A stretch of 64,000 bases of DNA, from NCBI RefSeq assembly GCF_014524565.1, contig NZ_CP060139.1, positions 3,665,501-3,729,500 of the forward strand, written 5' to 3'. The DNA is from Croceimicrobium hydrocarbonivorans (GTDB lineage Bacteria; Bacteroidota; Bacteroidia; Flavobacteriales; Schleiferiaceae). This document shows, piece after piece, positions 17,446 to 35,649 of the stretch; the first letter of the stretch is position 1, and each line of letters opens with the position of its first letter. The notes beneath the pieces were generated by a model that saw only the letters and a program-made list of their open reading frames with translations, searched no databases and was not told where the DNA came from. The position numbers and the translations under genes were made by a program.

Positions 17446-18664
17446 AAGAATGTTTATACTCAATAGTTTTTTCTTGGTAGGCATTTTTTTCACCAGCTGT
17501 TGTGATCGGGATGAGCCACCAAAACCTCAATCTAAGCCAGCCTATGAAATTCTTTGGCAGCGACCTATTGTGCCTGACCCTGAACTCTATTTTAGTTTGT
17601 CAATTAATCCATTTCTCTATAAGGGAATGGTAATCGTGAGTTCAGAATATACCATGGAGGGGGTAGAGAGTCCCTTGATGTTCTTGGATTCTGCCGATGG
17701 CCATATTATTGACCTTTGGTCGGATTTTATTGATGGCGCGGTCCCTTATATAAATGAAAGTGCCAGTTCGGAAGGTGAATTTTTAGTTCTGAACACTCAA
17801 AGATCGGTGGACTGTGTGAACCTTGAGACCCGCAGCCGGCAATGGGCTTCTTTAATTTCTCGTAATCACCCTTATAACTATATTTATAAAGGTTATGTTT
17901 ATACAACCATACAGTATAATGGTGAAGATGGAGCAGCGGTATTGCGCAGCCCCTTATACCATGAAGATTGGCAGACAGTTTATTCCTTTATTCGTACCGA
18001 TGAGTATGATCCTTTTTTCTCCGCTTTGGGATTTGGTGAAACAGAGGATGGCCATGATATTGTAGTTTGGAAAAATCGCAGTAGTTATACCAATAAAGAT
18101 CAAACCGACATTTTCGCCTATGATCTCACCGCCGATTCCTTATTGTGGCGAAACCGCGATTTTAATGTGTTTGGTGGCATATTACCCCTGCAGGTAGATA
18201 ATCAAAGAGTTTACGGAGCGGTGGAACGCAGGGTTTTTTGCCTTGATTTAATGACCGGGGATTCGATATGGACTAATGATTTTAGCGGAATTATCGCCCA
18301 ACCACGTCTTAGTAATATTGATCAGGGGATGATGTATCTGTCCGACTACAAAGTCTATATAAAAGGGGTGGGACCGGAGCTGGTCATCTTACATAAAAGT
18401 GATGGCAGTCTGTTTAGATCGAATAATGAATTGCCTCGAGGCATTGAAGACCGGGTGACCTATTTTGAAGGCAAATTATTTATGTCTACCCAAGAATTGG
18501 TGATTGTAGACTTGCTTACGGGTGACCTTTTAAATGACCCCAATGCCATGCTTAGGACTTTTGGAAATATATACAGCAAAATAGTGATCGACCCTGATCG
18601 ACGGGTAATGTATTTTCATAATGGGAGAACTTTGTTTTGCGTGAAAATACCGGAGGATTTGTGA
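17435..18664 (+). CDS. Beta-propeller (PQQ-like) lipoprotein, tandem copy 1
   Basis: The start is taken at ATG 17435 (MKSKRMFILNSFFLVGIFFTSC), 409 residues. An ATG at 17393 lies deep inside the lipase gene and is less likely. The lipobox FTSC places the protein at a membrane surface as a lipoprotein. The rest repeats PQQ/Trp-blade-like units (GMVIVSSEYTMEGVESPLMF, SVDCVNLETRSRQWASLISR, RVFCLDLMTGDSIWTNDFSG, ELVIVDLLTGDLLNDPNAML). It is the only one of four paralogs translationally coupled to the hydrolase and the only one with this signal sequence, so it may be the ancestral member. Confidence 0.8.
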   Translation: MKSKRMFILNSFFLVGIFFTSCCDRDEPPKPQSKPAYEILWQRPIVPDPELYFSLSINPFLYKGMVIVSSEYTMEGVESPLMFLDSADGHIIDLWSDFIDGAVPYINESASSEGEFLVLNTQRSVDCVNLETRSRQWASLISRNHPYNYIYKGYVYTTIQYNGEDGAAVLRSPLYHEDWQTVYSFIRTDEYDPFFSALGFGETEDGHDIVVWKNRSSYTNKDQTDIFAYDLTADSLLWRNRDFNVFGGILPLQVDNQRVYGAVERRVFCLDLMTGDSIWTNDFSGIIAQPRLSNIDQGMMYLSDYKVYIKGVGPELVILHKSDGSLFRSNNELPRGIEDRVTYFEGKLFMSTQELVIVDLLTGDLLNDPNAMLRTFGNIYSKIVIDPDRRVMYFHNGRTLFCVKIPEDL

Positions 18665-19076
18665 GAAGGAGCGGGAGAGAAGATAGCTGGTAGTTGGTCT
18701 TTGGTCGCTGGTCGGACTGAGGACAAGAGATGTTGTTTTCTTCCCTAAATAGGGACTTATGGATTAAACTGCGACTGCCTGCCGGTAGGCGGGAAGGTTC
18801 GCAAAGCATCTCCTTAGACCTCTGTGAACCTCTGCGCTCTTTGTGCCTCCCTGCCTGCCGGTAGGCGGGTAGCGAAGCGGGCGGTGAATTTGGGTAGTTG
18901 GGAATTGGTCGTTTGTCGTTGGGTTTTTAACCGCAAAGAAGCAAAGGGGCTAAGGTTCGCAAAGGTTTCTCCCTGCCTGCCGGTAGGCGGGTAGCGAAGC
19001 GGGCGATGAAGCAAAATTCGACTCTGGCTTTGGACCTTTTGCTAGAACGAGTATTAGTATTTTATGAATTAGCTAA
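18665..19076 (+). repeat. Composite repeat between lipoprotein copies 1 and 2
   Basis: After GAGAAGGAGCGGGAGAGAAG, shared downstream of all four copies, come a GGTAGTTGGTCTTTGGTCGC tract, hairpins near 18775, 18850 and 18972, the CTCTGCGCTCTTTGTGCCTC block and AGCGAAGCGGGCGGTG. From about 19012 to 19076 is the upstream block shared with copies 3 and 4 (AATTCGACTCTGGCTTTGGA ... ATGAATTAGCTAA). It probably contains their promoter: TTTTG, 16-18 bp, TATTTTATG. No gene is seen. Confidence 0.8.
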
Positions 19077-20318
19077 ATGAAACTGATCCCTAATAATAAC
19101 TCCCCTAGAATAAGTCCTTTATTCTTAGTCCTGCTTTGCCTGATGCTGGTGACTTGTAAAGATAAGGAGCCACCAAAACCTCAGTCTAAGCCAGCCTATG
19201 AAATTCTTTGGCAGCGACCCATCGTACCAGATCCCGAAATGTATTTTAGCATCTCTATCAATCCAGTTTTGTATAAAGGTATGGTGATAGTGAGTTCAGA
19301 ATATACTATGGAGGGGGTAGAAAGTCCAATAATGTTCTTAGACACCGCCGATGGCCATATAATCGACCTTTGGTCCGATTATATAGATGGCGCTGTCCCT
19401 TATTTAGAAGAAAGTTCAAGTTTTCAAGGTGATTATTTGGTCTTAAACAACTTGAGATCGGTAGACTGCATCAATCTCGAGACTCGCAGTCGGCAGTGGG
19501 CCACATTAATTTCACGCAATAGTGCTCATAATTATATTTATAAGGGTTATGTCTACACAACTATAGGTTTTAATGGTGAGGATGGAGCAGCGGTATTGCG
19601 CAGCCCCTTGGATCATGAAGATTGGCAGACAGTTTATTCCTTTATTCGTACCGATGAGTATGATCCTTTTTTCTCCGCTTTGGGATTTGGTGAAACAGAG
19701 GATGGCCACGATATTGTGGTTTGGAAAAATCGCAGTAGTTATACCAATAAGAATCAAACCGACATTTTCGCTTACGATCTCACCGCCGATTCCTTATTGT
19801 GGCGAAACCGCGATTTTAATGTATTTGGCGGCATATTGCCCTTGCAGGTAGATAATCAAAGAGTTTACGGTGCCGTGGAACGCAGGGTTTTTTGTCTTGA
19901 TTTATTGACTGGAGATTCAATTTGGACTAATGATTTTAGCGGAATTATCGCCCAACCACGTCTGAGTAATGTTGATCAGGGGATGATGTACCTGTCCGAC
20001 TATAAAGTCTATATAAAAGGGGTGGGGCCGGAGCTGGTCATCTTACACAAAAGTGATGGTAGTCTATTTAGATCGAATAATGAATTACCCGATGGTATTG
20101 AAGATCGGGTGACCTATTTTGAAGGTAAATTATTTATATCTACCCAAGAACTAGTGATTGTAGACCTGCTTACAGGTGACCTTTTAAATAATCCCAATGA
20201 CATGATTTCAACCTTTGGTTATATCCAAAGTAGGATTGTGATCGACCCAGATCGACGGGTAATGTATTTTCATAATGGGAGAACCTTGTTCTGCGTGAAA
20301 ATACCGGAGGATTTGTGA
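19077..20318 (+). CDS. Beta-propeller (PQQ-like) lipoprotein, tandem copy 2
   Basis: The 413-residue protein has a signal peptide and lipobox LVTC (MKLIPNNNSPRISPLFLVLL...LVTCKDKE). The same blade pattern as copy 1 is present. Residues 45-150 are the most divergent among the paralogs (MYFSISINPVLYKGM, DTADGHIIDLWSDYIDGAVP, SSSFQGDYLVLNNLRSVDC). Residues 190-345 are nearly identical to copy 1. The C-terminus again differs (NNPNDMISTFGYIQSRI). The alternation of divergent and identical blocks points to gene conversion rather than uniform drift. Confidence 0.8.
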   Translation: MKLIPNNNSPRISPLFLVLLCLMLVTCKDKEPPKPQSKPAYEILWQRPIVPDPEMYFSISINPVLYKGMVIVSSEYTMEGVESPIMFLDTADGHIIDLWSDYIDGAVPYLEESSSFQGDYLVLNNLRSVDCINLETRSRQWATLISRNSAHNYIYKGYVYTTIGFNGEDGAAVLRSPLDHEDWQTVYSFIRTDEYDPFFSALGFGETEDGHDIVVWKNRSSYTNKNQTDIFAYDLTADSLLWRNRDFNVFGGILPLQVDNQRVYGAVERRVFCLDLLTGDSIWTNDFSGIIAQPRLSNVDQGMMYLSDYKVYIKGVGPELVILHKSDGSLFRSNNELPDGIEDRVTYFEGKLFISTQELVIVDLLTGDLLNNPNDMISTFGYIQSRIVIDPDRRVMYFHNGRTLFCVKIPEDL

Positions 20319-20633
20319 GAAGGAGCGGGAGAGAAGGTAGCTGGTCTTTGGTCGTTGGTAGTTTGTTTGAGACGATAGTAGATAGACCATAGACGATAGA
20401 TTTGATTGGAGTCAAAGAAGTTTGATTGGTTTTTCAAATTTTGGTGCTGTGGGTTTAACCGCACCCGCCTGCCGATAGGTAGGAAGAAGCAAAGGGGCAC
20501 CTGCCTGCCAGTAGGCGGGTAGCGACGAAGGAGCGGGTGGTGAAGCAATAGCGCAGTGGGCGGTGAAGCAAAATTCGACTCAGGCTTTGGACATCTTACC
20601 AGAACGAGTAGTACTATTTTATGAATTAGCTAA
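20319..20633 (+). repeat. Composite repeat between lipoprotein copies 2 and 3
   Basis: This gap carries the long form of the repeat (GGTCGTTGGTAGTTTGTTTG, ACGATAGTAGATAGACCATA, GATTTGATTGGAGTCAAAGA), unlike the gaps after copies 1, 3 and 4. It has hairpin variants near 20466 (CCGCCTGCCGATAGGTAGG) and 20502. The shared upstream block of the next copy follows, here with changes inside the putative promoter. No gene is seen. Confidence 0.8.
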
Positions 20634-21878
20634 ATGAAACTGATCCCTAATAATAACTCCCCTAGAATAAGTCCATTATTCTTAGTCCTGCTTTGCCTGA
20701 TGCTGGTGACTTGTAAAGATAAGGAGCCCCCCAAGCCCCAGCTTAAACCAGCCTATGAGATTCTTTGGCAGCGGCCCATCGTACCAGACCCTGAACTCTA
20801 TTTTAGTTTGTCAATTAATCCATTTCTCTATAAGGGAATGGTAATCGTGAGTTCAGAATATACCATGGAGGGGGTAGAGAGTCCCCTGATGTTCTTGGAT
20901 TCTGCCGATGGCCATATTATTGATCTTTGGTCCGATTTTATTGATGGCGCGGTACCATATATAGATGAATGTGCCAGTTCGGAAGGTGAATTTTTAGTTC
21001 TGAACACTCAAAGATCGGTGGACTGTGTGAACCTGGAGACTCGCAGCCGGCAATGGGCTTCTTTAATTTCTCGCAATCACCCCTATAACTATATCTATAA
21101 AGGTTTTGTCTATACAACTATACAGTATAATGGTGATGATGGCGCGGCGGTATTGCGCAGCCCCTTAGACCATGAAGATTGGCAGACGGTCTATCCCTTT
21201 ACTCGTACCGATTTTTATCATCCTTTTTTCTCTGCTTTGGGATTTGGTGAAACAGAGGATGGACATGAAATCGTGGTTTGGAAAAATAGGAGTAGTTCAG
21301 GAGGTATAAAAAATCAAACTGACATTTTTGCCTATGATCTTACCGCCGATTCCTTAATGTGGCGAAATCGAGATTTTAATGAATTTGGCGGCATATTACC
21401 CCTGCAGGTAGATAATCAAAGAGTCTACGGAGCGGTGGAAAGCAGGGTTTTTTGCCTTGATTTAATGACCGGGGATTCGATATGGACTAATGATTTTAGT
21501 GGGATTGTATCCAAACCAAAGCTCTATAATTTTGATCAAGGGATGATGTATCTGTCGGATTATAAGGTTTATTTAAAGGGGGGAGGACCAGAGCTGGTCA
21601 TCTTACATAAAAGTGATGGTAGTCTGTTTAGGACTAATGATGAATTACCCGATGGTATTGAAGACCGGGTGACCTATTTTGAAGGCAAATTATTTATGTC
21701 TACCCAAGAACTAGTGATTGTAGACCTGCTTACAGGTGACCTTTTAAATGATCCCAATGCCATGCTTAGGACTTTTGGAAATATATACAGCAAAATAGTG
21801 ATCGACCCAGATCGACGGGTAATGTATTTCCATAATGGGAGAACCTTGTTTTGCGTGAAAATACCGGAGGATTTGTGA
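20634..21878 (+). CDS. Beta-propeller (PQQ-like) lipoprotein, tandem copy 3
   Basis: The 414-residue protein has the same signal peptide and LVTC lipobox as copies 2 and 4. It is one residue longer because SSYTNKDQ is replaced by SSSGGIKNQ (around residue 222). Its second half is the most divergent (LMWRNRDFNEFGGI, AVESRVFC, GIVSKPKLYNFDQ, VYLKGGGPEL, FRTNDELPDG), while its first half is nearly identical to copy 4. Role presumably the same as its paralogs; substrate or partner unknown. Confidence 0.8.
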   Translation: MKLIPNNNSPRISPLFLVLLCLMLVTCKDKEPPKPQLKPAYEILWQRPIVPDPELYFSLSINPFLYKGMVIVSSEYTMEGVESPLMFLDSADGHIIDLWSDFIDGAVPYIDECASSEGEFLVLNTQRSVDCVNLETRSRQWASLISRNHPYNYIYKGFVYTTIQYNGDDGAAVLRSPLDHEDWQTVYPFTRTDFYHPFFSALGFGETEDGHEIVVWKNRSSSGGIKNQTDIFAYDLTADSLMWRNRDFNEFGGILPLQVDNQRVYGAVESRVFCLDLMTGDSIWTNDFSGIVSKPKLYNFDQGMMYLSDYKVYLKGGGPELVILHKSDGSLFRTNDELPDGIEDRVTYFEGKLFMSTQELVIVDLLTGDLLNDPNAMLRTFGNIYSKIVIDPDRRVMYFHNGRTLFCVKIPEDL

Positions 21879-22175
21879 GAAGGAGCGGGAGAGAAGGTAG
21901 CTGGTAGTTGGTCTTTGGTCGCTGGTCGCTGGTCGGACTGAGGACAAGAGATGTTGTTTTCTTCCCTAAATAGGGACTTATGGATTAAACTGCGACTGCC
22001 TGCCGGTAGGCGGGAAGGTTCGCAAAGCATCTCCTTAGACCTCTTTGCACCTCTGCGCTCTTTGTGCCTCCCTGCCTGCCGGTAGGCGGGTAGCGAAGCG
22101 GGCGGTGAAGCAAAATTCGACTCTGGCTTTGGACCTCTTGCTAGAACGAGTATTAGTATTTTATGAATTAGCTAA
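21879..22175 (+). repeat. Composite repeat between lipoprotein copies 3 and 4
   Basis: Nearly identical to the gap after copy 1 (GGACTGAGGACAAGAGATGT, CCCTAAATAGGGACTTATGG, hairpins near 21997 and 22071). This shows that the duplication unit included the downstream repeat. It ends with the shared upstream block AATTCGACTCTGGCTTTGGA. Confidence 0.85.
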
Positions 22176-23417
22176 ATGAAACTGATCCCTAATAATAACT
22201 CCCCTAGAATAAGTCCTTTATTCTTAGTCCTGCTTTGCTTGTTGCTGGTGACTTGTAAAGATAAGGAGCCACCAAAACCTCAGTCTAAGCCAGCCTATGA
22301 AATTCTTTGGCAGCGGCCCATCGTACCAGACCCCGAACTCTATTTTAGTTTGTCAATTAATCCATTTCTCTATAAGGGGATGGTAATCGTGAGTTCAGAA
22401 TATACCATGGAGGGGGTAGAGAGTCCCCTGATGTTCTTGGATTCTGCCGATGGCCATATTATTGATCTTTGGTCCGATTTTATTGATGGCGCGGTACCAT
22501 ATATAGATGAAAGTGCCAGTTCGGAAGGTGAATTTTTAGTTCTGAACACTCAAAGATCGGTGGACTGTGTGAACCTGGAGACCCGCAGCCGGCAATGGGC
22601 TTCTTTAATTTCTCGCAATCACCCCTATAACTATATCTATAAAGGTTTTGTCTATACAACTATACAGTATAATGGTGATGATGGAGCAGCGGTATTGCGC
22701 AGCCCCTTAGACCATGAAGATTGGCAGACGGTCTATCCCTTTACTCGGACCGATGAGTATGTCCCCTTTTTCTCCGCTTTGGGATTTGGTGAAACAGAGG
22801 ATGGCCATGATATTGTAGTTTGGAAAAATCGCAGTAGTTATACCAATAAAGATCAAACCGACATTTTCGCCTATGATCTCACCGCCGATTCCTTATTGTG
22901 GCGAAACCGCGATTTTAATGTGTTTGGTGGCATATTACCCCTGCAGGTAGATAATCAAAGAGTTTACGGAGCGGTGGAACGCAGGGTTTTTTGCCTTGAT
23001 TTAATGACCGGGGATTCGATATGGACTAATGATTTTAGCGGAATTATCGCCCAACCACGTCTTAGTAATATTGATCAGGGGATGATGTATCTGTCCGACT
23101 ACAAAGTCTATATAAAAGGGGTGGGACCGGAGCTGGTCATCTTACATAAAAGTGATGGCAGTCTGTTTAGATCGAATAATGAATTGCCCGATGGTATTGA
23201 AGACCGGGTGACCTATTTTGAAGGCAAATTATTTATGTCTACCCAAGAATTGGTGATTGTAGACCTGCTTACAGGTGACCTTTTAAATGATCCCAATGCC
23301 ATGCTTAGGACTTTTGGAAATATATACAGCAAAATAGTGATCGACCCTGACCGACGGGTAATGTATTTCCATAATGGGAGAACCTTGTTCTGCGTGAAAA
23401 TACCGGAGGATTTGTGA
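22176..23417 (+). CDS. Beta-propeller (PQQ-like) lipoprotein, tandem copy 4
   Basis: The 413-residue protein has signal peptide and lipobox LVTC. It reads as a chimera. Residues 1 to about 190 match copy 3 (YIDESASSEGEF, YKGFVYTTIQYNGDDGAAVL, VYPFTRTD). From about residue 200 to the end it matches copy 1 (HDIVVWKNRSSYTNKDQTDI, RRVFCLDLMTGDSIWTNDFS, IIAQPRLSNIDQ), apart from NELPDG. This is the clearest recombination product in the array. Confidence 0.8.
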   Translation: MKLIPNNNSPRISPLFLVLLCLLLVTCKDKEPPKPQSKPAYEILWQRPIVPDPELYFSLSINPFLYKGMVIVSSEYTMEGVESPLMFLDSADGHIIDLWSDFIDGAVPYIDESASSEGEFLVLNTQRSVDCVNLETRSRQWASLISRNHPYNYIYKGFVYTTIQYNGDDGAAVLRSPLDHEDWQTVYPFTRTDEYVPFFSALGFGETEDGHDIVVWKNRSSYTNKDQTDIFAYDLTADSLLWRNRDFNVFGGILPLQVDNQRVYGAVERRVFCLDLMTGDSIWTNDFSGIIAQPRLSNIDQGMMYLSDYKVYIKGVGPELVILHKSDGSLFRSNNELPDGIEDRVTYFEGKLFMSTQELVIVDLLTGDLLNDPNAMLRTFGNIYSKIVIDPDRRVMYFHNGRTLFCVKIPEDL

Positions 23418-23627: not shown

Positions 23628-23849
23628 TTAGTCTTTTAGAAGTTCGGCCAGACTTATTTCAAGGCCTGCTGCGATTTTTAAGAGGGTTAGAACCCGTGGG
23701 TTGGTTTCAGCTTTTTCTATTTTGTGCAATTGAGTACGACCTATATCGCAATGGAAAGCAAAAGCTTTTTGATCTAAGCCTTTTATTTCGCGAAGTTCTT
23801 TGATCCTGGAACCTAAGAACTGTAGATATTTCTCATCTGATTTGTTCAC
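23628..23849 (-). CDS. Small XRE-family regulator, likely partner of SymE-like gene
   Basis: The protein is a compact HTH_3 domain: LGSRIKELREIKGLDQKAFA, FHCDIGRTQLHKIEKAETNP, RVLTLLKIAAGLEISLAELL. The open frame reaches an ATG at 23948, but that would overlap the divergent SymE-like gene and cross the inverted repeat at 23883-23900. A GTG at 23849 (VNKSDEKYLQFLGSRI, 73 residues) or a TTG at 23867 is more plausible. It probably binds the shared intergenic operator and represses one or both genes. Antitoxin function is inference. Confidence 0.75.
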   Translation of the reverse strand: MNKSDEKYLQFLGSRIKELREIKGLDQKAFAFHCDIGRTQLHKIEKAETNPRVLTLLKIAAGLEISLAELLKD

Positions 23850-23882
23850 TATTCCAAACTTGATCAAATCTTTTTTATATTG

Positions 23883-23900
23883 TGTTCGCTTTAACGAACA
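23883..23900. promoter_or_regulatory. Inverted repeat, candidate operator for the XRE protein
   Basis: TGTTCG and its exact complement CGAACA are separated by 6 bp (CTTTAA). They sit between the divergent XRE and SymE-like genes and end 3 bp before the ATG of the latter. Size and spacing fit a dimeric HTH regulator. Confidence 0.6.
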
Positions 23901-23903
23901 GAT

Positions 23904-24089
23904 ATGACTCGCAATAGAACTCTTAAAATACATGCCAAGCATCGCCAACGATCTTATGACTCTACCAAAGTACCTGAGATCCGCCTGGAAGGGAAATGGC
24001 TGGAAAGCCTAGGCTTTGAGATAGGAGGGGAGGTAAACTTGGACTTGAGGGAAGGGGAGATTAGGATAAGGTGTAAAGGAGCATTGTAG
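23904..24089 (+). CDS. SymE-like toxin-family protein
   Basis: The 61-residue protein matches the SymE toxin domain (AbrB-like swapped-hairpin fold): RSYDSTKVPEIRLEGKWLES, LGFEIGGEVNLDLREGEIRI. The pattern IPxIxLxGxWLxxxGFxxGxxVxxxxxEGxI is the family signature. In E. coli, SymE is an SOS-induced protein controlled by an antisense RNA and linked to RNA cleavage or nucleoid condensation. Here the partner appears to be a divergent XRE protein instead. It is the last gene before the CRISPR array, about 80 bp from its degenerate first half repeat. Confidence 0.8.
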   Translation: MTRNRTLKIHAKHRQRSYDSTKVPEIRLEGKWLESLGFEIGGEVNLDLREGEIRIRCKGAL

Positions 24090-26397
24090 AACCGTTTTCT
24101 TCTTAATATTTTAAAGGAGGTTTTAAAAATTATTTTCCTTTAGTTTCTTATCTTTTGGTGTTAAAAAATGCAAATAGTTCTGTCACAGGGCATATCCGCA
24201 ATGGAAACCACCCCCGGAAGTTGTGATTAGCTTTCAAATTGAATTGTAAATAGTTCTGTCGCAGGTTCATTATAATACGCGTGTGCGGGTGAGCGGGTTG
24301 TGATTAGCTTTCAAATTGAATTGTAAATAGTTCTGTCACAGGTTGAATGGTTAATCTCAGAGCTTGAAAGTAGTTGTGATTAGCTTTCAAATTGAATTGT
24401 AAATAGTTCTGTCACAGGAAGGCCATCTAAACGTAATATTTAACGGTGGTTGTGATTAGCTTTCAAATTGAATTGTAACTTAGTTCTGTCACAGGCCTGC
24501 GTTGCACTCTTACAAGTGATAACATGTTGTGATTAGCTTTCAAATTGAATTGTAACTTAGTTCTGTCACAGGTTTTACCTCCGTAAACTTTAACCCGGTG
24601 TAGTTGTGATTAGCTTTCAAATTGAATTGTAACTTAGTTCTGTCACAGGTCATTTGTTGGCCGTTTCCTTTTCGCACTCGTTGTGATTAGCTTTCAAATT
24701 GAATTGTAACTTAGTTCTGTCACAGGCACGTTCATCAACTTCTTCTCTAGAGATAGGTTGTGATTAGCTTTCAAATTGAATTGTAACTTAGTTCTGTCAC
24801 AGGCAGATTCAATACGTTTAATTTTGTTTTCAAGTTGTGATTAGCTTTCAAATTGAATTGTAACTTAGTTCTGTCACAGGTACTTTCAGAATAACGACTA
24901 CCACCACGAGGTTGTGATTAGCTTTCAAATTGAATTGTAACTTAGTTCTGTCACAGGGTACCATTTTCACTAGCCCAATGTAAACAAGTTGTGATTAGCT
25001 TTCAAATTGAATTGTAACTTAGTTCTGTCACAGGATCTGGGGGTAGATGGTGATCGTAGTGTGCGTTGTGATTAGCTTTCAAATTGAATTGTAACTTAGT
25101 TCTGTCACAGGACAAGAGTTAAAATCAAAGGTATATAAATAGTTGTGATTAGCTTTCAAATTGAATTGTAACTTAGTTCTGTCACAGGAATGATAAACAC
25201 TCCTTAGTTCAGTTGCAAGTTGTGATTAGCTTTCAAATTGAATTGTAACTTAGTTCTGTCACAGGTCCTTTTGAGTGTACATAAAAGAATTGCCCGTTGT
25301 GATTAGCTTTCAAATTGAATTGTAACTTAGTTCTGTCACAGGCATCCTTTGCTTCTTGAGCAGTGTAAAAGTGTTGTGATTAGCTTTCAAATTGAATTGT
25401 AACTTAGTTCTGTCACAGGGATTTGACAAAGCTTAGAATCTCTTTGGTCGTTGTGATTAGCTTTCAAATTGAATTGTAACTTAGTTCTGTCACAGGTACT
25501 AATAAAGTCATCCGCTGTGCCGTAAAGTTGTGATTAGCTTTCAAATTGAATTGTAACTTAGTTCTGTCACAGGCTGCCCTTGAAATGATTGCCAAGCATA
25601 TTGGTTGTGATTAGCTTTCAAATTGAATTGTAACTTAGTTCTGTCACAGGTTTTTTCTGTTTAATATCAGTATATTTTAAGTTGTGATTAGCTTTCAAAT
25701 TGAATTGTAACTTAGTTCTGTCACAGGTGGATCCGGTACTACACTGGTGTCATACCAGTTGTGATTAGCTTTCAAATTGAATTGTAACTTAGTTCTGTCA
25801 CAGGAATCGCTGCAGGTATGTCCAAACCTTGCAAGTTGTGATTAGCTTTCAAATTGAATTGTAACTTAGTTCTGTCACAGGATTGATTTTACACAAATAA
25901 ACAAAAATATTGTTGTGATTAGCTTTCAAATTGAATTGTAACTTAGTTCTGTCACAGGATGCTAACAGCTGACAACCACTATTATGCTGTTGTGATTAGC
26001 TTTCAAATTGAATTGTAACTTAGTTCTGTCACAGGCGGAAAAGAACTCCTATTTTTAACGACCGGTTGTGATTAGCTTTCAAATTGAATTGTAACTTAGT
26101 TCTGTCACAGGTCTAAAAGACACAGACGAAACCCTTTGGCAGTTGTGATTAGCTTTCAAATTGAATTGTAACTTAGTTCTGTCACAGGCTACTCTAGCAT
26201 CTTCTGTCACCTCGATATGTTGTGATTAGCTTTCAAATTGAATTGTAACTTAGTTCTGTCACAGGGATGCCTTTGAAAGCGCACGAGAACATTTTGTTGT
26301 GATTAGCTTTCAAATTGAATTGTAACTTAGTTCTGTCACAGGGGTGGCCCCGGATGTGTAAGTCCCCCATTATTCCAACAGGTCTAAATTATCGATT

Positions 26398-27222
26398 TTA
26401 GGCAATAAGCCTTTGTTTAAATTCTCTTGGAGACATGTCTCCAAGAGAAGAATGCGGATGGTTTTGATTGTAGTCTTCCATCCAATGATTGATTAACTCT
26501 TGCATCTGCGTCTTCGTTTCAAAGAGATAAGCGTTGAGCACGTCTTCTCTCAGGGTGCGGTTAAAGCGTTCACAAAAGCCATTCTGCATAGGTTTTCCTT
26601 TCTGTATTCTTAAGTGTTTTATCTGATGTCGTTTGCAAAACTTTTGAAAGGCTTCTGCCATAAACTCTGTTCCGTTATCAGTTCTTATGGTAAATGGCTT
26701 ACCGTGCCACTCTATTAGCTGCTCAAATTGCTCTACTACATGTTCGGAAGGGAAACTGCTGGATACCTTGCAAGCCAAAGCTTCGCGGTTGTAGTCGTCA
26801 ATAATGTTGAGCACACGCATTTTCACACCATTCTCTAAGCGGTCCTGCATGAAGTCGGCACTCCAACATAGGTTAGGAGCTAAAGGCTGCAGCAACACCT
26901 CTTTGTCAGGGTTAGGAATACGTCGCTTCCATTTCCTCTTGCGCTTGTTCATCCCCAGTTTGATGTACACCCTGCGGATACGTTTCTTGTTCCAGGCATA
27001 ACCCTCTTTACGAATACGCTTGGTATAAAATGGGCAGCCACGCGCAGGATAATGCTCCGCGTACCAGCGTAGCTTTTCCTCTACCTCCTTATCGTCTCGC
27101 TTGGATATATAGTAATATCCAGAGCGCTCAAGGCTAATGATTTTACAGGCCCTGGCAGTACTGACAGCGTAATCCGCTTTAATCTGCTTTGCTAAAAACC
27201 TCTTCTGACAGAGCCCTAGAGC
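26398..27222 (-). CDS. IS3-family transposase OrfB, expressed by -1 frameshift
   Basis: The rve-type DDE core contains LCWSADFMQDRLENG (first Asp), VLNIIDDYNREALACKV, FTIRTDNGTEFMAEAFQKFC (second Asp) and MQNGFCERFNRTLREDVLNA (Glu). A GTG at 26970 gives only the core, but the frame is open without a stop up to the slippery A7G at 27229-27222. The extra region reads SLERSGYYYISKRDDKEVEE and YAEHYPARGCPFYTKRIRKE, the normal IS3 OrfB HTH_21 region. The product is therefore probably the OrfAB fusion. Confidence 0.88.
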   Translation of the reverse strand, partial: ALGLCQKRFLAKQIKADYAVSTARACKIISLERSGYYYISKRDDKEVEEKLRWYAEHYPARGCPFYTKRIRKEGYAWNKKRIRRVYIKLGMNKRKRKWKRRIPNPDKEVLLQPLAPNLCWSADFMQDRLENGVKMRVLNIIDDYNREALACKVSSSFPSEHVVEQFEQLIEWHGKPFTIRTDNGTEFMAEAFQKFCKRHQIKHLRIQKGKPMQNGFCERFNRTLREDVLNAYLFETKTQMQELINHWMEDYNQNHPHSSLGDMSPREFKQRLIA

Positions 27223-27482
27223 TTTTTTTCCACCACATCCTTAAGGATCCTGTGGTCTAAGCTCAAATCCGCATACATCTGCTTTAGCTTCGTGTTTTCT
27301 CGCTCTAACTCCTTGTACTTGCGTAGCATTGCTGAATCCATGCCCCCGTACTTCTTGCGCCAGATATAAAAAGTATTGGCGCTTATACCTAACTCCTTGC
27401 AGATATCCTGTACTTTCTTACCAGCCTCATGCTCCTTTAAAGCCTGGCTGATCTGGCTTTCACTAAATCTTGATTTTTTCAT
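27216..27482 (-). CDS. IS3-family transposase OrfA
   Basis: The 88-residue protein from ATG 27482 (MKKSRFSESQISQALKEHEA) is preferred over an upstream Met at 27506 because this start is universal in IS407-group OrfA. The HTH_8-type fold (KVQDICKELGISANTFYIWR) is followed by KYGGMDSAMLRKYKELEREN and a leucine-zipper-like helix. It ends HRILKDVVEKKL just after the slippery run that leads into OrfB. Confidence 0.88.
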   Translation of the reverse strand: MKKSRFSESQISQALKEHEAGKKVQDICKELGISANTFYIWRKKYGGMDSAMLRKYKELERENTKLKQMYADLSLDHRILKDVVEKKL

Positions 27483-29145
27483 AGTCAACAGTTTAAATTT
27501 ACACACTTTTAAACTGTTGGATTTTTTGGGGGACTTACAGATGGCCCAGGTGAAAGCTTGTTGTGATTAGCTTTCAAATTGAATTGTAACTTAGTTCTGT
27601 CACAGGATTCCTGTTTGGCGAAGGGTTCAATGATGAGTTGTGATTAGCTTTCAAATTGAATTGTAACTTAGTTCTGTCACAGGTGCGGCGGCTAGCGCGA
27701 CGGCAGCTGAAAAGTTGTGATTAGCTTTCAAATTGAATTGTAACTTAGTTCTGTCACAGGATTAAGGGAGGTTGTTAAACAGGCCGTGCCGTTGTGATTA
27801 GCTTTCAAATTGAATTGTAACTTAGTTCTGTCACAGGTTAAAAAGGATTCAATAAGCTCTTCAGGCAGTTGTGATTAGCTTTCAAATTGAATTGTAACTT
27901 AGTTCTGTCACAGGGCCTTCGGCCCAAGCTACAGGCTCTGCCATGTTGTGATTAGCTTTCAAATTGAATTGTAACTTAGTTCTGTCACAGGTAAGAGCGT
28001 ACCAGTCAATGTTACCTTTAGGTTGTGATTAGCTTTCAAATTGAATTGTAACTTAGTTCTGTCACAGGGGATTAATATTGTAAATCCCGTTTGGATCAGT
28101 TGTGATTAGCTTTCAAATTGAATTGTAACTTAGTTCTGTCACAGGCATAATGAGCGCATTAAGCTCATTCAGGGTGTTGTGATTAGCTTTCAAATTGAAT
28201 TGTAACTTAGTTCTGTCACAGGGCCTCAATCATACTGCTGAAGGGATTATAAGTTGTGATTAGCTTTCAAATTGAATTGTAACTTAGTTCTGTCACAGGT
28301 ACACTATTCTCTAAGCGCGCCTGGTTTTGGTTGTGATTAGCTTTCAAATTGAATTGTAACTTAGTTCTGTCACAGGGCTCGCCTAAAATGTCCGCCGTGC
28401 TCAATGGTTGTGATTAGCTTTCAAATTGAATTGTAACTTAGTTCTGTCACAGGTATTCATATCCCCTTCAGTGGCGGCCATATGTTGTGATTAGCTTTCA
28501 AATTGAATTGTAACTTAGTTCTGTCACAGGAAAATTGCGCATCACCTGCGTATTTCTGAGGTTGTGATTAGCTTTCAAATTGAATTGTAACTTAGTTCTG
28601 TCACAGGCTTTCAGAAGCACATTAAGCAAGGACAAATGTTGTGATTAGCTTTCAAATTGAATTGTAACTTAGTTCTGTCACAGGACTTCCTCGGTTTGCC
28701 CCTTGAAGCTAAAAGTTGTGATTAGCTTTCAAATTGAATTGTAACTTAGTTCTGTCACAGGGGCCGTTGCCGCTGGGCTCATTACTTAAGGGTTGTGATT
28801 AGCTTTCAAATTGAATTGTAACTTAGTTCTGTCACAGGTTACGCGCTCATAGGGGCCTATCGGTGCAAGTTGTGATTAGCTTTCAAATTGAATTGTAACT
28901 TAGTTCTGTCACAGGTAATATTTGGAAATAGGCGAATTAGTGATGGTTGTGATTAGCTTTCAAATTGAATTGTAACTTAGTTCTGTCACAGGAGCACTCC
29001 CTTGCGGCGCTACATTCAGTATGTTGTGATTAGCTTTCAAATTGAATTGTAACTTAGTTCTGTCACAGGTAATTGATTCGTTTTGTCTTACAAATGTAGT
29101 TGTGATTAGCTTTCAAATTGAATTGTAACTTAGTTCTGTCACAGG

Positions 29146-29209: not shown

Positions 29210-29557
29210 CTAGAATAGCTCCAATTGCTGCGGGGTATCTGGTTTTTCTATTTCTGATTTACCACGAAAAAATTCCATCATGCCAAACTGTTTATCTGTA
29301 AGAGAAAATAGTATCACTTCCCCCTTGGGCGGTAAGAAGCTTTTTACCCTTTTTATGTGAACATTAGCATTATCTCGACTGGAGCAATGTCGTGTATAAA
29401 TCGAATATTGCATCATCGTAAACCCATCCTTTAGAAGGTTTTTTCTAAAAAGCGCACCTTGCCTTCGGTCTCTTTTTGTATCAGTCGGTAGGTCATAGTG
29501 CACAAATACCCACATGATGCGATAAGCATTAAACTGATCGTGGCTTAACATTGCCAA
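29210..29557 (-). CDS. cas2: CRISPR-associated endonuclease Cas2
   Basis: The 115-residue protein has the Cas2 ferredoxin-like start after a short extension (FNAYRIMWVFVHYDLPTDTK) with the conserved first-strand Asp. FTMMQYSIYTRHCSSRDNAN and VKSFLPPKGEVILFSLTDKQ follow. It bridges Cas1 dimers during spacer integration. It overlaps the end of cas1 by 29 nt, so cas9-cas1-cas2 form one operon reading toward the array. The first Met is plausible; MLSHDQ two codons later is an alternative. Confidence 0.95.
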   Translation of the reverse strand: MAMLSHDQFNAYRIMWVFVHYDLPTDTKRDRRQGALFRKNLLKDGFTMMQYSIYTRHCSSRDNANVHIKRVKSFLPPKGEVILFSLTDKQFGMMEFFRGKSEIEKPDTPQQLELF

Positions 29558-30464
29558 TTTGTATTTTAGGGTAAGCTATTTTGCGACGTTCACCTTCATA
29601 ACATTGCATTAAGCTGGCCGTTGTTCGCTGCATTCCTACCATTAATGGACTTTTCATATCGTCAATGTAAACATCGATTGTAGGCAAGGCTAGGAGCTCC
29701 CTCTTTATTGCTGGGCTTAAAACCTCAATATCTTTAGTATCAAAATTCTCAACAATGTCAAGAACTAATAAGTCCACAAATGGTCGATAGGGTTCCATGA
29801 TATCATCCGCAAGGCAAAAAGGATTGTATTTATTGCGATGATGAATGCCTACTGCAGGAAGCATTCCACTCGCAACTAAGCTTCGTGCGACAATGGCACG
29901 CAAAATGGCGTAACCATAGTTCAAGAGATTATTGGGAACATCTTCATATCGACCTCTCCTAAAAGGGAAATCGGACTCGATTAGCTTTACCCAATAATTC
30001 GCTGCTGCACGTCCTTCATAATTATCAGGATCCCCACTTCGAACCTTAGAAGCCCAGTTTTCCATATTGCTGGCCTCTTTTCCTATACCCTTAAGGACCT
30101 GTGCTTGATTCTCAATTTTTGATTTTACGGTCTGTTGCCAAAGGTTTTTTCGCAAGGGTTCTGATGATTCTAATTGAAAGCGCAATTTCTCTGTGAAGGT
30201 ATGATTAGCGCTCATTGGCATAAAGAGACCCGCCGGTAAATGATGGCTGTCGCAGCTAAGTATAGCTGCATTATGATCAATTAGATCTGCTAAAAGAGCC
30301 TGTGAAATAGTGATCCTCGGATGGTCCAGGATTAAAATTCCAATATCTTCAATAGGAATTGTTTTGGCTGATTTCCCCTCTTCTGATGGGAAATCTACTT
30401 TGAGTTGCAGCTTTTCTTTATGTAAGTAAGCCGGGTTACCGAAGTATAAGGTTCGCTTAATCAA
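29529..30464 (-). CDS. cas1: CRISPR-associated endonuclease Cas1
   Basis: The 311-residue integrase has the N-terminal beta domain (RTLYFGNPAYLHKEKLQLKV, EDIGILILDHPRITISQALL). The alpha-helical catalytic domain contains NNLLNYGYAILRAIVARSLV, GIHHRNKYNPFCLADDIMEP and YRPFVDLLVLDIV. The Glu/His/Asp metal-binding set sits within these. Length and sequence type fit type II Cas1. It starts 4 nt inside the end of cas9 (ATGA-type overlap). Confidence 0.96.
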   Translation of the reverse strand: MIKRTLYFGNPAYLHKEKLQLKVDFPSEEGKSAKTIPIEDIGILILDHPRITISQALLADLIDHNAAILSCDSHHLPAGLFMPMSANHTFTEKLRFQLESSEPLRKNLWQQTVKSKIENQAQVLKGIGKEASNMENWASKVRSGDPDNYEGRAAANYWVKLIESDFPFRRGRYEDVPNNLLNYGYAILRAIVARSLVASGMLPAVGIHHRNKYNPFCLADDIMEPYRPFVDLLVLDIVENFDTKDIEVLSPAIKRELLALPTIDVYIDDMKSPLMVGMQRTTASLMQCYEGERRKIAYPKIQIGNVKPRSV

Positions 30465-33400
30465 TACTCTCCAACTTGAACAATTTCACCTAAATAATTA
30501 ACTCGCACTTTTACAATTTGCTTTAGTGGTTCTAAGCTTTTTATCTTTTTATAGGTAATGTTTTGTAATGCTTTATTCGTTTCAACTAGCGTTTCAAGAT
30601 GGTGACGGAAAACATATTCCCGAATAATGGCAGTGCCATATGCTAAGCGTGAAACTGCTTGAACACGATAAAGATTTGGGCTTATTATCGAATAATTTTC
30701 AGGATCCCTTAAATCTATTTCTAGAGGATCAAATCCTTCAGCAGGGAATACGAAGTATTCATTTTTCTTTAGAGTGAACTTCAGTGGGTGCCCAAGGCTA
30801 TTTGGATTCCAAACTACTGTTTTATCCTGCTTGTACCGCTGCACTGCTTCGTAGAAAGACACTACTTCATCATAAAGGTTTCCTTCAGAATCCTCATAAA
30901 TGGCCGCATGGTGATTATTGCCTGTACTCACATAACTAGTTGGTATTTCCTTACCTTGATCATCTAAGATCAGCTCTCCATCTATTCCTCTTTTACGATG
31001 CAAGGCTTCCGCGTTTTTTACCCCACTAATCTTTACACTTTTTATCGAAATTCGTTTTTCCTCATTTAGCCATATGGGATTTTCTTCCAGATCGGAGAAA
31101 GCTGTTTTAGCATCATTAGATTCTTCGAGCCTTTTTTCTAATGCCCTCCGAGCTCCGGCGTCAATTATTTTTTCTAAACTCTTAACATTTTTAAAGTTCT
31201 CAGGGTTTACATCTTTACGAATGCTAAACTCCTCTTCCAGATAGCTGATCTTTACTTTAGAAGGTAAAGTTTCTATCCCCCCCTTAAAAAGGATGGGCTT
31301 TTTAGATGGGCTATTCTTGCCTGAAAATGCCTTCTTTGGGTCATTGTCATTTTCCTCTAATCTTAATAGTAAGGCTTCGCGATGTCCTTTATTGGCAACT
31401 TTTAATATGGTTTCTAAGTCTAAACTGGCATTAATCGGAATCAACTTAGTTTTATACCTTTTTAAACTTCCATATATAGTTTCATTGTGCAATTGGCCAC
31501 GGGGAGTTTCAATGATCTGTTTGCGGAATTTTCCTGACCCAATCTTAATCTTATTGACGTTTAAGGTTACCACTTTGTTATTGGCTTTCCTCGAAACGAG
31601 AATCTCTTCAAGGTGCTTTTTAGCTTCATTCCTAAAGCCTGGCATCGGTGACTTAAACCGCCATTTATTGGCATCATCCTTAAAGAGTTCTTTGGACTGA
31701 ATACCGAAAACCTCCTTGCCAATTTGGTCATGACGATCTCTGGCATTTAGGTAATTCAGATATTGTATAAAACTTGGTTTGGTAAAAGCCACCGTCAGGG
31801 CGTCCATAGCATGATGTCGATGATCATTCCGCTTATTCCAATCCCTAATTTTCCTGTGTTTTTTGCCAGTTTTATCAACTATTTCTTCCGTTAACCCCAA
31901 TGACTGATATTTATTCCAATTGAGTTCCTTCATAACGTCTACTAAGCCCCAATCTGTTCTCAAACGATCAGTTATTGGCCCAATGGTAGTGCTTACTTTA
32001 AGGCTTATTTGTTGAAGAATCTCTTTAGCTTTTCGCGCGATATATTGACTTTCCTGTAATTGTCTCTTTATGAAGTCTTCAGGGATGTCAGCGCTGTCCC
32101 AGCTGAGTTTTAAAAATTTAGTTTTGCTAATACCTTCTTTTTTAGCTTTTAAATCTTCAATTCTCTTCAGGTAGCTTGCAAAATCATCGGCACTGAGCTT
32201 TACTTCTAAGAATTCCTTGGCCGTTTTATTGCCCTTTTCTTCATTCCAAGCTCTTTCACAAAGTACTTTATTACTATACGAGTCGTCAAATAGTTTAGAG
32301 CGGGGGATAATATGGTCGATATCATATTTATTACCGAACAATTCGGATTTGGGAATAATTTCGCCTGAGTATATTGAAACATAGCCACACTCCTCCCAAA
32401 GTTTATAGCGAATAATATCGTTCTTGGACACTTTTTGAATTCCAAACTCAGAACTTAAGAGTTTACGTATACGATCATTATTTGCCGTTGCATCGGCAAT
32501 TCCTTTGGTCATATCACGTCTTTGCTCTGCATTCTTTTTTAACTCTCGCGCCAATTCTATCCGTATTTCATCCGGACGTCCCATTTCAGGATGCTTGAGA
32601 ATTGCATTAATTAGATTGATTACTTGATTAAGTACTTTTTCAACCACTGGATTTCGAAGGGCACCTAACTTAAGGAGCTCTAATTCTTCAATAATTTCTG
32701 GTTTGATTTTTTGGTAACCAATTAAAGCTAAGGATTCAGATAAATCATTACCCTCTTGCATAAGGGGAAGTAATTTTCGAATCGCTCTACTGCTGTACCG
32801 CCCGTAGTCGGATTCAAAACTAATATTGGCTAAAATGGCAGAGGCAGATTCATTAAAACCGTATTTATTGGCTAAAACATCTTTAAGCTTGCGATCATCT
32901 TCTGCAGAATAGAGGAGGTGCCAAAGTTGGAAATTCGGATGTTTGTCAAATCCTTCATCCTTAAAAGGAATATCAAATTCTAAAACCTGAGTGTCAAAAT
33001 TTAAGGAGGAGAAAATTGCTTTAAGATCTATAAGAAGAGTTTCAGAATCGGGATTTAATTCATATCCTTCGTGCTCCACAATTCTTAAAAAGGCGGACAA
33101 CATTTTACAATTCGTCCTATTCCCTTCTATTTTGCTGAAATTACACTTCCAGCCTTTTTCTAGCTTTAGTTCTTTTACCAGTTCAGCTCCTGAGATTTGC
33201 TCTTTAAAACTAAGTTTATGCCCTAGAATATTCAATTGCTCTTCATTCAATACGTATTCCCCTTCATTAGTTTTAGAGAGCCTGATGTTCAAAAGGTTAT
33301 GCCAAATTCTAAATTCTTGAAAGAGGGGAGAGGACTTTGGTATTGCTTTATGATATTTCTCTAGCTCGCAATCTGTAATTAAGTGCTTTTGGGATTTGAG

Positions 33401-34552
33401 TCTTCTCTGATAAAAAACTACAGTATCTCGTATTTCAGTCTTTAATTTTTTAGTCAATATAGGATGTGCTTTTGCTTGTACCTCCCATATTTTCTCAAAT
33501 TCATCTAAATAATCCTGGCGGTAAAAAACTTGTTTTTTTAATTGTGCATGTGGGTTATTTGCCACTTGCTCATAGAGATACTGACCGACCGTTATCCGTT
33601 TGAAATAGAGTTCTTTACTCCGATCACTAATTGCACCTAAATAGCCACTTGAATTAGAAATATCACCATTTATTTCAGCGAATACATGAATCAGATCTTC
33701 TAGGGGAAGTTTTTCATGTATCGCTTTTGCTCGTAAACGATATTTCGCTTCCTTTTTTTCCTTTGGATTACCTACAAGCTTGGACGAGTCCGTTTGTAAT
33801 TGATTGAGGAAATATTTTGTCGTTTGAGATCTGCTAAAATTATTTAAGTCATTAAGAACCTTCGCAGTCAATACTTCAGGATAATGAGTGCTTTGATACT
33901 TCCAAATGCTTTCAAATTCGGCTCTTAAATCTGAAGGGTAAAACTTAGGAATGGTTGTTTTTCCGTTTTCAATTAGTTGGACCACATATTCTCCAGGGCT
34001 TAAATTGTGATCATATAACTGCTTTGCAATTCCCATTGAATCAATAGCAGCACCTTCTTCTTCATTCTTAGCTTTCCGACTGCTTTTGTATCCTCTCTTT
34101 TTGTTGATCATAAGAAGAACTCGAGCAAATTCCTCTAATTCAATTCGATCTTCAGCTGCCTTTGCTCTCAATCTAAGTGTTTCGAATGTAGAATTCTTAG
34201 TAGCTTCAAAGAGGGCGGTTATATCGGTAATAAGGCCATTTTCTTTTAATATCGCTACTAAATTTTCTCTTCGCAGTTTGTAGCGTTGCAAATTTCGGCG
34301 CATACCTCTCATTTGGGTCCGCCTAGCATTAAGAGAAAGTGCCATACCTTTTTCAAAGTCCTTAATTGGCTCCTTAGAAGTAGAAATATTTCCTAAGGCA
34401 TCTTTTTTCACCATATTGTCGCCATAAGGCACAACTCGAACTCCAAGCTTTACAATTTTTGATAATCCTTTTGGATCATTGTTTTCAGCTTCATTTACAA
34501 ATGCCCAGCCAATGCTGCCAGAGCCAATATCAAGTCCAAGAATTTTTTTCAT
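30461..34552 (-). CDS. cas9: CRISPR-associated endonuclease Cas9 (type II-C, long Bacteroidota form)
   Basis: The 1363-residue RNA-guided nuclease has RuvC-I LGLDIGSGSIGWAFV (Asp8), an Arg-rich bridge helix RRTQMRGMRRNLQRYKLRRE (residues 77-96), RuvC-II EIRIELARELK (Glu666), HNH KYDIDHIIPRSKLFDD (His747, with Asn761 in NKVLC) and RuvC-III HRHHAMDALTVAF (His914, Asp917). All catalytic positions are present, so both strands should be cut. No csn2 or cas4 accompanies it, which gives subtype II-C. Residues 1040-1363 form the PAM-interacting part. Start ATG 34552 (MKKILGLDIG) is firm. Confidence 0.98.
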   Translation of the reverse strand: MKKILGLDIGSGSIGWAFVNEAENNDPKGLSKIVKLGVRVVPYGDNMVKKDALGNISTSKEPIKDFEKGMALSLNARRTQMRGMRRNLQRYKLRRENLVAILKENGLITDITALFEATKNSTFETLRLRAKAAEDRIELEEFARVLLMINKKRGYKSSRKAKNEEEGAAIDSMGIAKQLYDHNLSPGEYVVQLIENGKTTIPKFYPSDLRAEFESIWKYQSTHYPEVLTAKVLNDLNNFSRSQTTKYFLNQLQTDSSKLVGNPKEKKEAKYRLRAKAIHEKLPLEDLIHVFAEINGDISNSSGYLGAISDRSKELYFKRITVGQYLYEQVANNPHAQLKKQVFYRQDYLDEFEKIWEVQAKAHPILTKKLKTEIRDTVVFYQRRLKSQKHLITDCELEKYHKAIPKSSPLFQEFRIWHNLLNIRLSKTNEGEYVLNEEQLNILGHKLSFKEQISGAELVKELKLEKGWKCNFSKIEGNRTNCKMLSAFLRIVEHEGYELNPDSETLLIDLKAIFSSLNFDTQVLEFDIPFKDEGFDKHPNFQLWHLLYSAEDDRKLKDVLANKYGFNESASAILANISFESDYGRYSSRAIRKLLPLMQEGNDLSESLALIGYQKIKPEIIEELELLKLGALRNPVVEKVLNQVINLINAILKHPEMGRPDEIRIELARELKKNAEQRRDMTKGIADATANNDRIRKLLSSEFGIQKVSKNDIIRYKLWEECGYVSIYSGEIIPKSELFGNKYDIDHIIPRSKLFDDSYSNKVLCERAWNEEKGNKTAKEFLEVKLSADDFASYLKRIEDLKAKKEGISKTKFLKLSWDSADIPEDFIKRQLQESQYIARKAKEILQQISLKVSTTIGPITDRLRTDWGLVDVMKELNWNKYQSLGLTEEIVDKTGKKHRKIRDWNKRNDHRHHAMDALTVAFTKPSFIQYLNYLNARDRHDQIGKEVFGIQSKELFKDDANKWRFKSPMPGFRNEAKKHLEEILVSRKANNKVVTLNVNKIKIGSGKFRKQIIETPRGQLHNETIYGSLKRYKTKLIPINASLDLETILKVANKGHREALLLRLEENDNDPKKAFSGKNSPSKKPILFKGGIETLPSKVKISYLEEEFSIRKDVNPENFKNVKSLEKIIDAGARRALEKRLEESNDAKTAFSDLEENPIWLNEEKRISIKSVKISGVKNAEALHRKRGIDGELILDDQGKEIPTSYVSTGNNHHAAIYEDSEGNLYDEVVSFYEAVQRYKQDKTVVWNPNSLGHPLKFTLKKNEYFVFPAEGFDPLEIDLRDPENYSIISPNLYRVQAVSRLAYGTAIIREYVFRHHLETLVETNKALQNITYKKIKSLEPLKQIVKVRVNYLGEIVQVGEY

Positions 34553-34686: not shown

Positions 34687-34694
34687 TATGTTTG
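34687..34694 (+). promoter_or_regulatory. Candidate -7 box of the tracrRNA promoter
   Basis: TATGTTTG matches the Bacteroidota -7 consensus TAnnTTTG exactly and ends 3 bp before the anti-repeat. The expected transcription start would fall at about 34700, at the beginning of the anti-repeat. A TTG at 34658-34660 is the nearest -33-like element, but the spacing of 26 bp is longer than usual. Confidence 0.55.
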
Positions 34695-34697
34695 AAG

Positions 34698-34772
34698 TCA
34701 ATTTGAAGCTAATCACAATAAAGATTATTCTGTTGTGAAAACATCTAAAGCGGCCCTAGGGTCGCTTTTTTT
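34698..34772 (+). ncRNA. tracrRNA
   Basis: TCAATTTGAAGCTAATCACAA (34698-34718) is complementary to the first 22 nt of the CRISPR repeat after its initial G, with a single-base bulge (GAAGC against GAAAGC). The tail AAAGATTATTCTGTTGTGAA follows and then a terminator hairpin (AGCGGCCC/GGGTCGCT) with seven T. The RNA would be about 75 nt. It lies in the 218-bp gap upstream of cas9 on the opposite strand. It should pair with crRNA repeats, bind Cas9 and allow RNase III processing. Confidence 0.9.
34749..34772 (+). terminator. Terminator of tracrRNA, overlapping the HNH gene's stop
   Basis: The stem AGCGGCCC/GGGTCGCT (one G-T pair) is followed by T7 at 34766-34772. The convergent HNH gene ends at 34771, so the structure may stop transcription from both sides. 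Confidence 0.85.
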
Positions 34773-35649
34773 AGTTTGAATCAAGAGGATTTTGGCATTG
34801 AATTTTTTCTTTCAATGAATCTGTACTATTGTAGCTTCCATCTTCCAATTTGCGATGTAGCATTCTATGGCAATTGGAACAAACTAGGGCCAAGTCTTCA
34901 GCTTTGGTGATCCTTTCACCATCCGCAATGTGTTTTTTATGATGACATTCAATAAAATTGGCCCCGATTGGTCCATAAAATTCCAAAAAGTCAAAAGAGC
35001 AACATTCGCATTGCAATTTCCCATGTTTCTTAAGTGTTTGTTCTTTTAGTTTTTGAACTATCGACGCATCACGTCGACTTAATTCTAATTGAATATGCTC
35101 TTTAATAATTCTGTCCCCTTCTACTACACCAAAATCTTCTAAGGCTTCGGGGGTAATCCTTAAGTCCTCATCGGACTTTATACATAGATGATCACTAAAT
35201 AGTCGCCAGAGATCTTCCTGCGTTTGTGCTTGATCCCACCCTCTGTCATTTTCAAGATTGATTATTGGATTTGTTAGTCCCCGATTAGGCTTAAAAAAAT
35301 TGTAGTAACCTGGATTCGAAATGGCGTAAATTGGATTTGCTTTTGCAATTAATTGAACTTCTCTACACCATCTATGATCAGGCCTATCTGGATCTTCTAT
35401 TACCTTTTCCGAAATAGGACTAACCAGATGTGTTAGGTGAACTAGATAATTCTTACGGCCATTAATTTTATTAGGCTTTTGAAACAAAACAATAATGTCA
35501 CCAACATTTGGAGTACGAGCACTACCTCCTTTAGCACTAGGCCAGTTTAATAGAAATGGTTTCTTGCAATCTACCTCTTCATAAGCCCAATCATTTCCTT
35601 GATTTCGTTTGACATTTTTAATCCAAACTATGTTTTTAGCATTATACAT
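34771..35649 (-). CDS. Probable modification-dependent HNH endonuclease (EVE/PUA-like + HNH)
   Basis: The 292-residue protein has two parts. Residues 1-165 (IVWIKNVKRNQGNDWAYEEV, VGDIIVLFQKPNKINGRKNY, LVHLTHLVSPISEKVIEDPD, REVQLIAKANPIYA) resemble the EVE/PUA-like modified-base-reading domains. Residues about 210-275 are a zinc-bound HNH nuclease (LQCECCSFDFLEFYG, IECHHKKHIADGERITKAED, LALVCSNCHRMLHRK) with two Cys pairs and the HH-H catalytic pattern. EVE-HNH proteins are known modification-dependent restriction enzymes. The HNH call is firm; the N-terminal fold is inferred. It lies convergent to the tracrRNA inside the defence island. Confidence 0.75.
   Translation of the reverse strand: MYNAKNIVWIKNVKRNQGNDWAYEEVDCKKPFLLNWPSAKGGSARTPNVGDIIVLFQKPNKINGRKNYLVHLTHLVSPISEKVIEDPDRPDHRWCREVQLIAKANPIYAISNPGYYNFFKPNRGLTNPIINLENDRGWDQAQTQEDLWRLFSDHLCIKSDEDLRITPEALEDFGVVEGDRIIKEHIQLELSRRDASIVQKLKEQTLKKHGKLQCECCSFDFLEFYGPIGANFIECHHKKHIADGERITKAEDLALVCSNCHRMLHRKLEDGSYNSTDSLKEKIQCQNPLDSN

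Follow-up and report, generated by a model that had tools for sequence, protein, structure and literature searches.

The kind of event described here, including a case in a relative in which both array halves are transcribed, is already published. In Flavobacterium psychrophilum CN46, an IS256 element with a target-site duplication lies inside a type II-C CRISPR array, and RNA-seq detected transcription of both truncated parts (PMC10309648). That locus is like ours in being a type II-C array of a related bacterium, divided into two parts by an insertion sequence (IS) with a target-site duplication; it differs in the IS family and in having a second IS (IS982) between tracrRNA and cas9 (PMC10309648). 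In Xanthomonas citri pv. citri LG097 an IS element occupies spacer Xcc_18, and in other strains an IS lies in a repeat; as in our case, the LG097 element is within a single spacer and 4 bp are affected at the insertion, but the host is a proteobacterium and the element belongs to the IS21 family (PMC6889575). In Mycobacterium tuberculosis, IS6110 has long been known to lie in the direct-repeat (CRISPR) locus; this too places an IS element within a CRISPR array, whereas that element sits mostly in the repeat, makes a 3-bp duplication and lies in a locus that no longer acquires spacers (PMC7708916). In the available part of a report on the type II-C array of Flavobacterium columnare, the repeats share with ours a TTG close to their start but are 36 bp long, and no IS interruption is described there (PMC8092290). 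Loss of immunity through an IS landing in a cas gene has also been published (PMC10359306).

We analysed a 64,000-nucleotide stretch of the Croceimicrobium hydrocarbonivorans genome (contig NZ_CP060139.1, positions 3,665,501 to 3,729,500; the window), in which an IS3-family element interrupts a CRISPR array. We consider it very likely that an IS407-group-like IS3 element recently transposed into one type II-C spacer and broke one guide, with the remaining array most likely working. The array and the element consist of the following features.

24166..26342, + strand: left, older array segment; some four degenerate or partial repeats precede 25 perfect ones
26343..26352, + strand: left 10 bp of the split spacer, GGTGGCCCCG, followed by GATG to 26356 (from the sequence)
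26353..26356, + strand: target-site duplication GATG, copy 1 (from flank comparison)
26357..27539, - strand: IS3-family (IS407-group-like) insertion sequence, 1,183 bp; the transposase reads leftwards
26398..27228, - strand: OrfB, intact DDE transposase (NF033516 transpos_IS3, 220 bits against a cut-off of 160 bits; Pfam rve and rve_3)
27216..27482, - strand: OrfA, 88 aa, N-terminal part of the transposase (IS3-family match)
27223..27229, - strand: A7 run in the OrfA/OrfB overlap, likely -1 frameshift site (inferred from the sequence)
27540..27543, + strand: target-site duplication GATG, copy 2 (from flank comparison)
27544..27559, + strand: right 16 bp of the split spacer, GCCCAGGTGAAAGCTT; repeat-proximal, the seed side of the guide (from the sequence)
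27560..29145, + strand: right, newer array segment on the cas2 side, with 21 perfect repeats

Direct reading of the sequence places the last repeat left of the element at 26296-26342 and the first repeat right of it at 27560-27606. Removal of the element and one GATG restores a 30-bp spacer (10+4+16; GGTGGCCCCGGATGGCCCAGGTGAAAGCTT) between perfect 47-bp repeats. With this reconstructed spacer included, the 46 perfect repeats delimit 45 spacers (43 of 30 bp and two of 29 bp), all distinct and without a 14-mer common to any two. The initial annotation had proposed that a transposon lies inside a single spacer of standard size, in an array that was built as one and interrupted later. All parts of this proposal held: GATG is present on both flanks and the halves total exactly 30 bp, the length of 42 of the 44 other spacers (the remaining two are 29 bp), and the empty site is exact, with perfect repeats on both sides. 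The G+C content of the split spacer (0.67) is the highest among the 45, in a tie, and the other insertion sites of the element show no clear G+C richness; a preference of the element for G+C-rich targets may at most be offered as a suggestion.

The ends of the element are 13-bp perfect terminal inverted repeats (TGTAAGTCCCCCA), and together with the OrfA/OrfB arrangement and the DDE integrase core these identify an IS3-family element. IS6110 is also a member of the IS3 family, in which an A7 run at the OrfA/OrfB junction is the usual place of the -1 frameshift. The element had been described as IS407-group-like from the start, and this description agrees with IS3-family membership and the 4-bp duplication, a length linked to the IS407 subgroup (PMC10045372) and the basis of the group call. 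A 28-bp perfect palindrome (26422-26449), close to the end of OrfB, is common to all seven copies of the element in the genome and is nearly complete also in a relative's fragment.

The genome (4,035,598 bp, one contig) contains six identical copies of the element and a seventh, near-identical one that is 3 bp shorter with few differences. Matching 4-bp sequences flank five of the six identical copies (GATG at the array copy; GTGA, GACC, CGAC and CCAC elsewhere), and for this reason a chance origin of the GATG pair was rejected. The sixth (L005:1501-2683) has the unmatched flanks AACC/AAGT, and a right-end remnant of the element (L018) lies ~2 kb from it; together these suggest a local rearrangement. 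Across the family's 87 further genomes, the element gave no more than partial matches. Since six copies are identical, the element must have been active recently, and the proposal that the insertion is recent is well supported, four of the other five identical copies having a 4-bp duplication of their own. A genome with seven copies would have one or more of them in the array by chance with a probability of ~0.7%, which across many genomes is unremarkable.

The array is followed by the cas genes and a predicted tracrRNA.

29210..29557, - strand: cas2 (TIGR01573)
29529..30464, - strand: cas1, type II (TIGR03639)
30461..34552, - strand: cas9, 1,363 aa (TIGR01865)
34699..34775, + strand: predicted tracrRNA; anti-repeat 34699-34719, terminator-like stem 34747-34768 with a T run

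As in type II-C systems, cas9, a type II cas1 and cas2 fill 29210-34552, csn2 and cas4 are absent from the operon, and the predicted tracrRNA combines an anti-repeat to the array repeat with a terminator. The anti-repeat differs from the array repeat by two edits and is located just upstream of cas9 on the opposite strand. Most of the relatives, identified through their Cas9 (best-segment identity 41-57%), share this position and strand. The RNA of the window is predicted to adopt a tracrRNA-like fold. The next gene after cas9, adjoining the predicted tracrRNA, encodes a 292-aa HNH endonuclease-domain protein (34771-35649). In type II guides, the 5' part of the repeat pairs with the anti-repeat. 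Given this pairing and the strand of the anti-repeat, crRNAs must be plus-strand transcripts, with the array read from left to right. This direction opposes the cas genes and the transposase gene and runs toward cas2.

The polarity of the array was judged from repeat degeneration. The degenerate or partial repeats, about four, are confined to the far left (24166-24418), and the right end is perfect. Among 45 arrays including that of the window, a script scored the cas2-distal end as the more degenerate in 34 and the near end in 2, the other 9 being ties; one array (L081), in which the extra distal copy is perfect, was recounted as a tie, leaving 33 of 45. Because degeneration is at the cas2-distal end in the window and in the relatives, new spacers enter at the right, cas2-side end. 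The 21 units right of the element are thus the younger part of the array and not a tail supplied by a left leader. Their acquisition may predate or postdate the element's arrival, with the identity of the IS copies favouring a late arrival. The initial annotation had considered the case of transcription starting only at the left end. The direction survives, with crRNAs read left to right on the evidence of the anti-repeat strand, but the left end is the old end and not a leader. The annotation had further argued that intact repeats on the distal side suggest either a recent insertion or internal promoters. This was a false choice: both are likely, and intactness proves neither, because each repeat arises as a copy at the growing end and requires no transcription to remain intact.

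We asked how the right-hand part could be transcribed. Of the 49 distinct repeats, that of the window among them, 26 have an exact TAnnTTTG on the crRNA strand; the repeats are related to one another, so that the occurrences are not independent events. Each of the 26 has a copy 18-21 nt past a TTG at positions 2-4, the other strand has the motif in 0 of the 49, and it occurs anywhere in 5.7% of shuffled repeats. The arrangement TTG-N18-21-TAnnTTTG in Bacteroidota II-C repeats is promoter-like in its sequence. The nearest sites in the window's own repeat are TTG-N23-TAACTTAG, which has an unusual spacing, and, five bases further, TAGTTCTG, with one mismatch each; one-mismatch matches occur in ~58% of shuffled repeats and so are no evidence by themselves. 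An exact copy (TATGTTTG) is present at 34687-34694, just upstream of the predicted tracrRNA, and none was found inside the element on either strand. Internal promoters in the array are likely, backed by the relatives and the literature, the motif in the window's repeat being imperfect. Bacteroidota II-C repeats are thought to carry their own promoters, reading toward the cas2-side growing end, and since each repeat would have one, the 21 newer units would be independent of read-through from the left. From the relatives and F. psychrophilum CN46 we infer that both array halves are probably transcribed.

If transcription came solely from an external promoter at the left end, the element would silence the 21 newer units. 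The left-to-right crRNA strand and the weak promoter-like motif of the window's repeat would fit this, but in published II-C arrays transcription starts from promoters within the repeats, the TTG-TAnnTTTG arrangement is widespread in the repeats of relatives, and F. psychrophilum CN46 transcribes both parts despite the IS in its array (PMC10309648); we regard silencing of this kind as quite unlikely. Alternatively, the two halves could derive from two spacers, if two elements had inserted and recombined with deletion of the intervening units. In M. tuberculosis, IS6110 provides a documented case of IS-mediated loss of CRISPR units (PMC7708916). A recombined pair would, however, normally have unmatched flanks, like the L005 copy in the same genome, whereas here the two 4-bp flanks agree and the halves add up to exactly 30 bp, making such an origin very improbable. 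Six identical copies could also confuse an assembly and lead to one of them being misplaced in the array, but a misjoin would produce neither the clean 4-bp duplication nor a spacer of exactly 30 bp, and an artefact is hardly credible.

The preferred reading is that a recently active IS407-group-like element jumped into one spacer of what had until then been a long, continuous II-C array, duplicating GATG (4 bp) and breaking one guide. Most likely, only this one guide was lost. What is left of the spacer is 14 nt ahead of the element and 20 contiguous original nt (GATG plus 16) ahead of the right repeat. As the right fragment is on the seed side, a transcript leaving the right end of the element could give a working guide, and a promoter in the left repeat could produce RNA antisense to the transposase; we think this unlikely.

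Targets of the spacers and comparable interruptions were searched for. The reconstructed spacer and its parts gave only chance-level matches (16-19 bases) in phages, none in viral contigs and none elsewhere in the own genome. When four other single spacers were searched against phages, one gave weak but consistent matches. This spacer (26266-26295), directly left of the element, has near-full-length matches of 86-89% to genes for adenine-specific methyltransferases in several unrelated phages, which suggests that it may target a conserved phage gene. Among 88 genomes of the family (own included), the array repeat was found in the own genome only, and no uninterrupted strain was found. The arrays of relatives contained no clear IS interruption, only one AbiE cassette and runs of N, in a survey biased by the breaking of draft assemblies at repeats. 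The cassette (L057:18750-20580, Flavobacterium sp. xlx-214) comprises genes for an AbiEii-type toxin and a DUF6088 protein and sits between the degenerate far-end repeat of a II-C array and one further perfect repeat. Left of the array in the window, four adjacent genes of 413-423 aa (17393-23417) have weak PQQ_2 (BamB-like) matches, the last three forming nearly tandem units of ~1.54 kb. Immediately to the left of the array, at 23628-24089, a small minus-strand ORF (helix-turn-helix-like) overlaps a 61-aa SymE-like ORF on the plus strand, a possible toxin-antitoxin pair.

The finding is real, neat and ordinary. That about half of the distinct II-C repeats of Bacteroidota contain the motif is a useful detail in support. 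With its newest 21 units physically separated from the older ones, the array is a natural experiment on whether the units of II-C arrays are transcribed independently; the close published case points the same way, which makes this one more example and not a new idea.
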